From positions 6,776,001-6,840,000 of the forward strand of contig NZ_CP011270.1 of NCBI RefSeq assembly GCF_001610835.1: 64,000 bases of DNA, given 5' to 3'. This stretch comes from Planctomyces sp. SH-PL14 (GTDB taxonomy: Bacteria > Planctomycetota > Planctomycetia > Planctomycetales > Planctomycetaceae). The position numbers and the translations under genes are program-made. This document shows positions 45,149 to 59,850 of this stretch, in pieces. Position 1 is the stretch's first letter; each line of letters begins with the position of its first letter. The notes beneath the pieces are model-generated. The model ran no database searches. It was not told the origin of the DNA and saw only the letters and a list, made by a program, of their open reading frames with translations.

Positions 45149-46129
45149 ATGAGTGCGCGCCTCGTCCATTCCCGGTCGGACCGGGGTTTCACGCTGATCG
45201 AACTCCTCGTCGTCATCGCGATCATCGCCGTCCTCGTGGCGATCCTTCTGCCGGCGGTCCAGCAGGCCCGCGAAGCGGCCCGGGCTTCCCAGTGCAAGAA
45301 CAACCTCAAGCAGCTGGGCATCGCGATGCACAGCTATCACGAGACGCATTTCTGCTTCCCGCCGGGCTCGACCGCGGTCTTCTACAAGGGGACCAACTGG
45401 CGGACACACCTCCTGCCGTACATCGACCAGGGACCGCTCTACAACAAGCTCGACTTCAACCTTCCGCTGACCGGCGGCGGTTCCTATCCGACCTCCGGCG
45501 TGAACACGGTTCTCAACAACCTGTCGATCCCGGTCTACACCTGTCCCTCCAGCGACCTGAACCCCACGGTCGGCGGCAGCAACAACACGTCGAACCTGCT
45601 GATGCATATGTACGTCGGCATCATGGGGGCGACTCCCGATCCCGCGGGACGGACCGTCGGTTCGGCCAGCAACTACGGCGGTTTCTACGTCAACAACGGA
45701 ACGCTGCTGTGCAATGAGATTACGCGGATCCGCGACATGTCAGACGGCTCGTCGAACATCATGGTCATCGCCGAGCAGTCCGGCCGGGTGAACGGCGTGA
45801 CGGACGTCCGCAGCGCCTATTACGGCGGCTGGGCCGGCGTGACGTTCGCCGCTCCGGTCTCGGCCAGCGTCCCCGCCAGTTCGGACTCCTGGAGCACGGG
45901 CGTCACCGGCGTCATGTACTCGATCAACTACCGGACCTACGGCGCAGCGATCCCGGCCGAGGCCAACAGCCCCTACGACGCGAACACGCTCCTGAACTCG
46001 TTCCACACCGGCGGAATCAACGCCCTGATGGGGGACGGGGCGGTCGTCTTCCTCGGCGACTCGATGGAAATGGAAACCCTCCGCCGGCTCGCGTCGCGGG
46101 GCGACTCCAAGCCGGTCGGAGAGTTCTGA
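45149..46129 (+). CDS. DUF1559 type II/IV pseudopilin-like protein (copy 1)
   Basis: 326 residues. N-terminal prepilin motif [38 protein letters not shown], with G before the cleavage site, F+1 and E+5, then the long DUF1559 domain ([43 protein letters not shown]) and the H-x9-GDG end ([21 protein letters not shown]). The family is a planctomycete expansion, exported and processed like pseudopilins; function unknown. Start ATG 45149, with TTG 45140 also possible (AAGGGAAG five bases before). Followed by a lipoprotein gene. Confidence 0.9.
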
Positions 46130-55485: not shown

Positions 55486-55797
55486 GCCCTTGCCGGACGG
55501 ACTTCCATAGCTCAAACCCAATGTGCCACGGCCGCTGGGGTCAAGGGGGTCTCACCCCCTTGCCGCCGGAGGCACTCCTGTGAGGAACCGTGGTAAGCAA
55601 CGGACGCCCCCTTTGTGTGACCGGCGTTGAGGACTCCACGCTCGCTCTGCGCTCGCAGCGGGTTGGTGAGGGGGCATCCGGCACCGTCTCCGCGTTCGGA
55701 CACTCACTCCTTCAGACATCTCCCGACGGCCAGGCCTCCGGCGGGCAAAGGGGCGTTGCCCCCTTGCATCCCCCACCAGGGTGCCCCTGGACCCGGT
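55486..55797 (+). repeat. Dispersed hairpin element, copy 9
   Basis: Full-length copy between two plus-strand genes. It starts four bases after the ABC gene stop, and its end 2 (CACCAGGGTGCCCCTGGACCCGG) lies 35 bases before the ATG of the PPO gene. The first hairpin reads CAAGGGGG-TCTCA-CCCCCTTG. Confidence 0.92.
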
Positions 55798-55831
55798 GAA
55801 TAAGTACCACGCGCGAAACTATCATTGCGAT

Positions 55832-57354: not shown

Positions 57355-57383
57355 TTGACAGGAACAGAGTCCCTTGGTAAAAT
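57355..57383 (+). promoter_or_regulatory. Consensus sigma-70 promoter upstream of the polycysteine leader
   Basis: TTGACA (57355-57360), a 17-base spacer, TAAAAT (57378-57383), followed by an AT-rich TATATTC. This is the clearest promoter in the window and stands out in high-GC surroundings. Start of transcription would be near 57390, 125 bases before the polycysteine micro-ORF and 440 before the DUF1559 ATG. Confidence 0.7.
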
Positions 57384-57515
57384 ATATTCACGACTTTGGT
57401 GGTAGTTGTTTGTGCGGATGGATGGCACGGCCACCGGGATCGACATCGGACCTCTTGTGCGACTGCTGACCGGCACGTTCCGGAGGCAGGCACGCGGACT
57501 CGAGGAGTCACGACA

Positions 57516-57539
57516 ATGTCTTGCTGTTGTTGCCGCTGA
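57516..57539 (+). CDS. Polycysteine leader peptide MSCCCCR
   Basis: Seven codons: ATG TCT TGC TGT TGT TGC CGC TGA. GAGGAG (57502-57507) lies eight bases before the ATG, an ideal spacing. Four consecutive Cys codons then Arg are unlikely by chance behind a good ribosome-binding site and consensus promoter. Polycysteine short ORFs act as cysteine-responsive attenuators in mycobacteria; such a role here is inference. Translation has not been shown. Confidence 0.55.
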   Translation: MSCCCCR

Positions 57540-57564
57540 GGCCTGCTCTGAACGTCAGGCCGCT

Positions 57565-57588
57565 GACCCGCTTCGGTTGGAGCGGGTC
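57565..57588 (+). promoter_or_regulatory. Hairpin downstream of the polycysteine ORF
   Basis: GACCCGCT-tcggttgg-AGCGGGTC, an eight-base perfect stem 25 bases after the micro-ORF stop. No T tract follows, so it could be part of an attenuator or sequester something, not a simple terminator. Confidence 0.4.
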
Positions 57589-57828
57589 GCCCGCCCGCGA
57601 AATGACGCATCCCCGCCCGGGACGTTCCTTCGCCGAGGTCGGGAACCTGACATCTCGCTTTTACTGAGGCCCCGCCGTCGCTGACGGATGGGTTGTGCTG
57701 AACGCTTTTCTTTCCGACCGGACGCTTGCCTCACTTCGGCGCGTTCTGTGGGTCCCGCTGAGGATGCGCGCCGCACAGAAGTCGGCCGCATTCATCGCCC
57801 TCTTTCCATACGCAGGAACACCTTCGTC

Positions 57829-58845
57829 ATGTCCTTTGCCCCTTCGTTCTTCCGCCGCGGCTCCTTGTCGCGGAAGTCCGGTTTCACGCTGATCGAACTC
57901 CTTGTGGTCATCGCCATCATCGCCGTCCTGGTGTCGATCCTCCTCCCGGCGGTGCAGCAGGCCCGCGAGGCGGCCCGCGCTTCGCAGTGCCGCAGCAACC
58001 TCAAGCAGATCGGCATCGCCCTCCACAACTACCACGAGGTCTTCGGGGCGTTGCCCCCCGGCGTCGTCCACAAGAACGGAAACCAGAATGTTGCCGCCCT
58101 CGGCTCCTACGGCTGGGGGACGTTCATCCTCCCGCAACTCGATCAGGGGACGATGTTCGAGGCGATGCAGACGAACGGTTCCGACCTCGACGAACTCCTG
58201 CGGAACACCTCGCAGCCGGCGGCCCGGGACCTCGTCTTCAAGTCGATCGCCGTCTACCGCTGCCCCTCCGACACCGCTCCGGATCTCAACACGAAGCGGG
58301 AGTGGGACACCCCCTACAGCACGTTCTTCAACAACCAGCCGGTCTACCTCTCGACGTCGAACTACGTCGGTATCTCGGGCTCGCGGTGGGCGACTCCGGA
58401 GGACTGGATCGTCAACCGCCTTGACCCCTACGGTGTCTTCTGGGGGGACAGCCGCGTCCAGTTCAAGGACATCACCGACGGCCTGTCGAACACGTTCATC
58501 GTCGGCGAGCGGGACTGGGAGCTGGGCTGGGCTGCCAACTGGGTCGGGCAGCGGAACTACGTTGGCACCGGCATCTGGGGCTCCCGCCAGAACCTCGCCA
58601 TTCTCGACGTGAAGATCAACGACCCGCTCCTCCAGCCCAACGGCAACCCGGCCGTCAGCCGCGGCTTCAGCAGCACGCACACTGGCGGCGTCCACTTCCT
58701 CCTCGGAGACGGCCGCGTCCAGTTCGTGAGCCAGGACATCGAGTTCAACAACGTCCAGCCTGCCCAGCAGAAGCCGAACAACACCCTCGGCCTCTTCCAG
58801 CGCCTCGGCCGCCGCAACGACGGGCTGTCGTTGGGAGAGTTTTGA
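57829..58845 (+). CDS. DUF1559 type II/IV pseudopilin-like protein (copy 2)
   Basis: 338 residues. Prepilin motif [38 protein letters not shown], then NNLKQIGIALHNYHEVFGALPPG-like DUF1559 core, VQFKDITDGLSNTFIVGERD and the terminal STHTGGVHFLLGDGRVQFVSQ. It is a paralogue of the gene at 45149 with the same architecture but a different variable middle. AGGAACA lies before the ATG. It is followed by a lipoprotein gene. Confidence 0.9.
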   Translation: MSFAPSFFRRGSLSRKSGFTLIELLVVIAIIAVLVSILLPAVQQAREAARASQCRSNLKQIGIALHNYHEVFGALPPGVVHKNGNQNVAALGSYGWGTFILPQLDQGTMFEAMQTNGSDLDELLRNTSQPAARDLVFKSIAVYRCPSDTAPDLNTKREWDTPYSTFFNNQPVYLSTSNYVGISGSRWATPEDWIVNRLDPYGVFWGDSRVQFKDITDGLSNTFIVGERDWELGWAANWVGQRNYVGTGIWGSRQNLAILDVKINDPLLQPNGNPAVSRGFSSTHTGGVHFLLGDGRVQFVSQDIEFNNVQPAQQKPNNTLGLFQRLGRRNDGLSLGEF

Positions 58846-58955: not shown

Positions 58956-59384
58956 ATGACACACCAACGTGCTTTGACAGCGACGGCCCTGATCCTGATT
59001 CCCCTGGCCTGGGCCGGCTGTTCCGAACACGGCCCGCCGCTGGGCTCCGTCAGCGGGACCGTCACCTGGAATGGCGAGCCCGTTCCCTTCGCGTACGTGG
59101 TCTTCCAGCCGGTCGAGCCGAAGGGAGCTTACGGCGCGGCCTACTCCGATGCAGACGGACGCTATGAACTCCTCTACAGCCGCGATCGGAGAGGGGCCCT
59201 CGTCGGCAAGCACGCCGTGACGGTCCGGACTTCCTCGGTCGACGAGATTCAGGTCGAGGATAAGAAGACCGGTCTCATGGTCACGCCCCCCTTGCCGAAG
59301 GGTTACCGTCCCAAGATGGAGAAGCAGTTCGAACGACAGGTCGCCGCGGGGGATAATGCGATCGATCTGGAGATCAAACGGTAA
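58956..59384 (+). CDS. Small lipoprotein with carboxypeptidase-regulatory-like fold (copy 2)
   Basis: 142 residues from the ATG at 58956. Lipobox-like LAWAGC (IPLAWAGCSEHG), then GSVSGTVTWNGEPVPFAYVVFQPVEPKG and YSDADGRYELLYS, the transthyretin-like beta-sandwich seen in lipoproteins behind DUF1559 genes. It parallels the pair at 45149/46232. The longer frame starting at 58842 runs through repeat DNA. Confidence 0.75.
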   Translation: MTHQRALTATALILIPLAWAGCSEHGPPLGSVSGTVTWNGEPVPFAYVVFQPVEPKGAYGAAYSDADGRYELLYSRDRRGALVGKHAVTVRTSSVDEIQVEDKKTGLMVTPPLPKGYRPKMEKQFERQVAAGDNAIDLEIKR

Positions 59385-59496: not shown

Positions 59497-59521
59497 TAGG
59501 GCAGTGGGGGCGCCCAATACT

Positions 59522-59850
59522 GACCGACTGGGTCCAGGGGTACCCTGGTGGGGAGTGCAGAGGGGCAACGCCCCTTTGCCCGCCGGAGGCCTGGCCGTCG
59601 AGAGATGTCTGAAGGAGTGTGTGTCCAAGCGCGGACAGTGTGCCGGATGCCCCCTCACAAAACCGCGGGGATTGCAAAGCGAGCGGTGTAGTGTGAGGGA
59701 GTCCTCAACGCTGGTTCTACAAAGGGGACATCCGTTGTTTACCACGGTTCCTCATGGAAGTGCCTCCGGCGGCAAGGGGGCGAGGCCCCCTTGACCCCGG
59801 GCTGCCGTCGCACGTTGGGTTTGAGCTATGACGCTGTGCCGGCAAGGGCG
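59522..59850 (-). repeat. Dispersed hairpin element, copy 10
   Basis: Full-length, minus orientation, between the convergent lipoprotein and HExxH genes. End 2 reads GGGTCCAGGGGTACCCTGG; the third hairpin reads AGGGGCAACGCCCCT; the first reads CAAGGGGGCGAGGCCCCCTTG; end 1 reads GTGCCGGCAAGGGCG. Confidence 0.92.

Follow-up and report, generated by a model that had tools for sequence, protein, structure and literature searches.

In E. coli, leaders of the tnaC/tna and hisL type leave the decision on expression to a ribosome that stalls when it reaches the last codons of a short leader peptide. For cysteine, leaders with Cys codons have been predicted before the cys operons of Actinobacteria (Seliverstov 2005, PMC1262725), and polycysteine ORFs in mycobacteria are cited as translation attenuators (Canestrari 2020, via PMC13236596). 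The uORFC-8-2 motif is found before cysS in Rhodobacterales (PMC8632094). Here we describe a leader belonging to a planctomycete-specific family of structured leaders that no Rfam family covers; its principle is known in Actinobacteria and Rhodobacterales. Its micro-ORF of mostly Cys codons, its conserved fold, and the frequent presence of a sulfatase in the operon behind it make it probable that the leader responds to the supply of cysteine by switching on the scavenging of sulphur.

The locus lies in a 64-kb stretch of the genome of Planctomyces sp. SH-PL14, the whole of which is called the window below (features in Table 1). The leader measures ~438 nt between its likely first nucleotide at ~57391 and the ATG of the DUF1559 gene, in agreement with the roughly 440 bases given in a preliminary description, which also placed it ahead of a pseudopilin/lipoprotein pair. 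The micro-ORF starts ~125 nt downstream of the predicted start site and reads ATG TCT TGC TGT TGT TGC CGC TGA. That description had reported a GAGGAG ribosome site ahead of a seven-codon ORF with four Cys codons and a hairpin further downstream, and all three are present where it put them. It had called the promoter perfect; site and spacing stand, and the perfection does not, with 11 of 12 positions matching the consensus (5/6 in TAAAAT). This promoter is the sole such site in a 2-kb scan (0.1 expected) and the sole site with one mismatch or fewer in 64 kb (0.06 expected). Runs of the form (TGY)x4 number two in the window, with 0.02 expected from shuffling; the other copy is at 45576 (-). The larger conserved hairpin carries a compensatory change from U-A to C-G in the window copy. 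We conclude that the leader with its micro-ORF is a real feature, beyond chance.

Table 1. Elements of the cysteine leader, its operon, and the paralogous operon of the same genome
Feature	Position	Strand	Remarks
Promoter TTGACA-N17-TAAAAT, extended -10 TG	57355-57383	+	Same position in nearly all relatives' leaders
Hairpin at predicted RNA 5' end	57390-57406	+	Window copy imperfect; several relatives perfect and covarying
Conserved hairpin GUGC..GCU-GA-CCGG..CCGG-A-GGC..GCAC	57457-57493	+	Family consensus CUGACUGG n CCRGAGGC
SD-holding hairpin GACUC-GAG-GAGUC	57497-57509	+	Sequesters Shine-Dalgarno of micro-ORF
Shine-Dalgarno GAGGAG of micro-ORF	57502-57507	+	8 nt before ATG 57516
Micro-ORF MSCCCCR* (putative leader peptide, terminal Cys codons; asterisk, stop codon)	57516-57539	+	
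Hairpin GGCCTG..CAGGCC	57540-57561	+	Directly 3' of micro-ORF stop codon
Hairpin GACCCGCU..GGAGCGGGUC	57565-57588	+	8 bp, GACCCGC..GCGGGTC; no U-run behind
DUF1559 pseudopilin-like gene (N_methyl + DUF1559; SBP_bac_10)	57829-58845	+	Operon gene 1
Lipoprotein gene, weak CarboxypepD_reg match	58956-59384	+	Operon gene 2, conserved partner
Nine-gene operon DUF1559-lipoprotein-DUF1559-lipoprotein-sulfatase-PSCyt1-DUF1501-DUF2292-like-sulfatase	G000:C1 ~7541451 down to 7529000	-	L303

No family of Rfam 15 scores above its gathering threshold in the window. When eight leader loci were compared with Rfam at E values up to 5, the only results were miRNA models matched by inverted repeats, plus a pair of weak, unrelated matches. 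BLASTN of the window leader against its own genome (8.44 Mb, single contig) gives no paralogue. An inverted repeat of ~300 bp (window 55506-55806 and 59518-59830, 80%-88% complementary) flanks the segment with an amine oxidase-like gene and the leader operon; by eye, a similar sequence also occurs near 8370600 of G000:C1 (L252), which suggests an intergenic repeat dispersed through this genome.

The exact motif MxCCCC(R/K)* occurs, among 40 genomes, in the window's own genome only. A search for the exact peptide is misleading: the heptapeptide sequence varies, and what the compared leaders conserve is the leader and the Cys codons at the ORF end. Orthologues of the DUF1559 gene elsewhere (71%-78% identity) have a similar promoter and a Cys-ending short ORF 310-370 nt upstream (MKPFCCCC*, ..TTGCCRPCCCC*, MSILRCCR*, ..TVARCC*, and ..LTQRCC*). 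These leaders share a common build, consisting of a near-consensus promoter, a start-site hairpin, a CTGACTGG..CCRGAGGC hairpin, an SD-sequestering hairpin, and the Cys-ending ORF. Searching with the middle element by itself brings up many more leaders of like build, again with Cys-ending ORFs (e.g., MFARCCCC*); further examples in the family are MSAVCCCR* and ...RCC*. Two other patterns were discarded: SD plus poly-Cys, which in 101 genomes matched mostly Leu runs in genes, and promoter plus poly-Cys, which in 170 genomes matched the window and four unrelated sites.

A covariance model built from 19 leaders detects the leader in 28 of 170 family genomes (14 of 58 genera), with the terminal Cys codons kept while the micro-ORF varies in length and sequence; lack of conservation in relatives had been named beforehand as the outcome that would count against the micro-ORF. 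The second model (R2, 41 leaders, window left out) recovers the window leader, which it places at 57385-57516 and scores at 48.4 bits. The E value is 1.3e-8 for 64 kb and 1.7e-6 for the whole genome, where the model has no other match. Among these 41 leaders, both sides change in 17 of 23 pairs. Their covariation score is 0.308, compared with 0.209 for shuffled and at most 0.13 for slid controls, in an alignment fitted to the structure, which favors the score; raw MAFFT alignments show the same trend. Outside the family, a phylum-wide draw gave matches in only two genomes, both of the same class: G247, where one match of two is followed by a ..SFGCCS* ORF, and G293, with no uORF. At two loci in genomes of other families (L213, 979-1007 on the + strand, and L215, 4200-4295 on the - strand), the conserved element stands directly before the DUF1559 start codon with no intervening Cys ORF. 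This is a second copy in L213 and the only copy in L215, a near-match with no uORF.

Since the covariance model stops at the AUG, the content of the micro-ORF is independent of it. In 36 of 43 micro-ORFs, at least one of the final four residues is Cys; for leaders outside the first training set, the figure is 19 out of 22 (P = 2e-13 against the out-of-frame rate). Some members keep a single terminal Cys (MFASNSTC*) or have their last Cys 6-17 residues before the stop. Cys accounts for 11.0% of residues in frame, versus 3.5% and 4.4% when the same DNA is read in the other two frames. Between close relatives, micro-ORF indels are 12 and 6 nt long, both multiples of 3, and the middle of the peptide drifts with its Cys end kept. 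Among the Cys codons, TGT and TGC stand at 125:45 in the micro-ORFs versus 33:100 in the downstream genes (P = 2e-17), or a UGU share of 74% against 25%. Other pyrimidine-ending codons of the same micro-ORFs end in U in 44% of cases, and the preference for UGU exceeds these 3.5-fold. The stop codon is UGA in 34 of 43, with TAG and TAA also occurring. On this reading of the codons, frame, Cys end, and codon bias are the marks of a leader peptide that is read for its codons.

The typical operon behind the leader runs DUF1559 pseudopilin, lipoprotein, (sulfatase), PSCyt1/DUF1549/DUF1553, DUF1501; the sulfatase is present in about half, and certain leaders drive a PSCyt1-DUF1501 pair alone. In one genome (G054; L217 1-5924), two adjacent leaders point away from each other; the first drives DUF1559, and the second drives cysteine synthase A (TIGR01139, above cut-off) together with an OscA-like DUF2292 gene (OscA model match at E = 2e-8, below its cut-off). 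PMC10433965 names OscA as a protein of the response to sulphur starvation. The second of these is the only leader with a cysteine-synthesis gene behind it. Of 29 other cysK loci examined in the family, one has a CCC-ending ORF close upstream, and no cysK start except that of G054 has a model match. A ..QSPRCCC* short ORF is located 163 nt upstream of the cysteine synthase gene in L235 (the G051 cysK locus), where the model has no match.

Across the DUF1559 paralogues of three genomes, a sulfatase lies within 1.5 kb in four out of six with the leader and in three out of 23 without it (P = 0.018). Two of the three leaderless cases have weak model matches, and one sits in a nine-gene operon of the window's own genome. 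That genome has 118 DUF1559 matches, and the nearest paralogues of the window gene (51%-53%) form this operon, which has its own promoter and MLSSPDRRGSSTALSALSRLGLSCCCRLG* (..SCCCRLG*) in a diverged second Cys leader beyond the model's reach. The window's own operon holds no sulphur gene. Because the paralogous operon has two sulfatases and an OscA/DUF2292-like ORF behind a Cys leader, we regard the window's as a reduced, two-gene form of a sulphur-linked operon. The preliminary statement that the downstream gene is not one of sulphur metabolism thus holds for the reduced operon and fails for the wider operon type. Judged by gene content (sulfatase, OscA-like, cysteine synthase A), the function of leader operons is tied to cysteine/sulphur, outside the window's two-gene operon. 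Of a new regulon under cysteine control and an independent regulatory RNA, both of which had been put forward, the regulon is favored, since the leaders read into same-strand genes and the same operon kinds recur (sulfatase, OscA-like, and once cysteine synthase).

The sequences show a leader family with covarying structure, terminal Cys codons in frame, a preference for UGU, and a recurrent operon content. From these features it appears likely that the leader is a leader-peptide attenuator, specific to planctomycetes and responsive to cysteine, that controls a sulphur-scavenging regulon. We infer that the ORF is translated and that cysteine is the signal, with an output step that would be either Rho-dependent or translational. 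RNA polymerase would start at the near-consensus promoter, and the leader would fold so as to place the SD of the short ORF in a small hairpin. Ribosomes would then translate an ORF that closes with codons for cysteine, mostly UGU, which is read by wobble. As long as Cys-tRNA is plentiful, the ribosome would finish and depart, and most transcripts, or their translation, would fail over the ~290-nt untranslated stretch before gene 1. When Cys-tRNA is short, the ribosome would stall on the Cys codons beside the stop and cover or rearrange the RNA just downstream, so that the operon would be expressed.

For the output step, Rho-dependent transcription attenuation as in tna is our first choice, because the untranslated stretch is long and no U-run terminators were found in a search after the leader ORFs. 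C exceeds G more strongly behind the ORF than ahead of it (P = 3e-6); genes show at least as much of this skew, so any Rho loading sites are putative. Across the family, modest structure is present in the 100 nt that follow the ORF (mean z = -0.99) and absent from the next 100 (-0.29). C-richness and modest structure would fit Rho-dependent attenuation in which a stalled ribosome masks the loading region. Less probable, although a possible alternative, is translational attenuation or reinitiation, in which gene 1 would have its ribosome site masked by long-range pairing that a stall on the Cys codons alters, with transcription unaffected. In three genomes of one genus where the leader drives PSCyt1 (L171, L174, and L175), 9-10 nt of complementarity link the hairpin strand CCUUAGAGG(C) to CCUCUAAGG, located immediately ahead of the PSCyt1 start. 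The leader's own SD is already held in a hairpin, the element stands right at the DUF1559 start in L213 and L215, and mycobacterial cysteine genes are cited as translation-attenuated (PMC13236596). Against this, the DUF1559 leaders inspected by eye, including that of the window, have no complement to the gene's ribosome site, and the distance from ORF to gene is highly variable, usually ~200-350 nt.

Attenuation through the Cys codons also has to be weighed against readings in which codons are not what is sensed. A nascent or released Cys-rich C-terminus could itself respond to redox state or a metal, which would suit the longer ORFs with internal as well as terminal Cys clusters (e.g., L105 and L178) and the Arg that often flanks the Cys pair. 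We think this unlikely: Peptides of seven or eight residues with terminal Cys sit deep in the ribosome tunnel, the remainder of the peptide is unconserved, the preference for UGU over UGC is a matter of codons, and the co-regulated genes are sulphur genes. Slightly more doubtful again is that a nucleotide motif, UGUUGUUGA, is conserved for structure or binding with the Cys codons as a by-product. Strong UGU bias and the frequent UGA stop do make CGYUGUUGUUGA recurrent, but the Cys run is in frame with a start behind a conserved SD hairpin, third positions (TGC/TGT) and stops (TGA, TAG, and TAA) vary, and indels keep the frame. Chance does produce poly-Cys ORFs behind GGAG within genes (8370841 of the own genome, G080, and G103), and a second own-genome ORF, MGGRCCCC, and MGMRKRVACCCC in G080/G103 were rejected as such coding coincidences. 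That the window micro-ORF is such an accident, or that it belongs to a longer gene of 92 codons (57406-57684) whose frame was misread, has a negligible probability and is already refuted by the conservation of the leader, which a model built without it recovers. The 92-codon frame was ruled out as a gene for lack of coding GC3 (third-position GC of 0.63, versus 0.78-0.92 in neighboring genes).

To our knowledge, planctomycetes have very many sulfatases and >100 DUF1559 genes per genome, with no known regulation or role. Our search of the literature on DUF1559/sulfatase regulation and on planctomycete leader peptides found nothing on a Cys leader. A Cys-codon leader ahead of one DUF1559/sulfatase subset ties that subset to sulphur supply. 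The broader proposal, to which we give an even chance, is that Planctomycetales have a cysteine-starvation regulon, controlled by this undescribed cis-regulatory RNA, in which DUF1559 pseudopilins, PSCyt1/DUF1549/DUF1553, DUF1501, and sulfatases jointly harvest sulphur from sulphated polymers. If this is true, large families of unknown function gain a physiological role.

The planctomycete leader resembles the actinobacterial polycysteine leaders (PMC1262725; PMC13236596) in its short ORF with a Cys run near the stop, its place upstream of an operon, and its lack of a conserved terminator hairpin; a Rho mechanism has been proposed there too. In contrast to the mycobacterial ORFs, which are described as leaderless, the ORF is not at the very 5' end of the transcript, given the predicted start site, but lies ~125 nt after it, with its SD within a conserved multi-hairpin leader. 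Unlike in the actinobacterial cys leaders, the phylum is another, and the operon is one of pseudopilin, lipoprotein, sulfatase, PSCyt1, and DUF1501 rather than of cysteine synthesis. With uORFC-8-2 (PMC8632094) it shares tandem Cys codons in a uORF and a structured leader, read there as ribosome-mediated attenuation; that motif, however, is restricted to Rhodobacterales and to cysS, with Cys codons at positions 14-15 inside a stem and a U-run terminator, and the planctomycete leader has none of these features. As in hisL, a run of one amino acid stands beside the stop, whereas the amino acid, leader structure, and genes differ from those of both tnaC and hisL and no his-type intrinsic terminator was found here. 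What it has in common with attenuators in general is a short ORF that follows a start signal, precedes an operon, and is rich in codons for a single amino acid. It would bring control by cysteine leader peptides to another phylum, on a new RNA scaffold and with new target genes.
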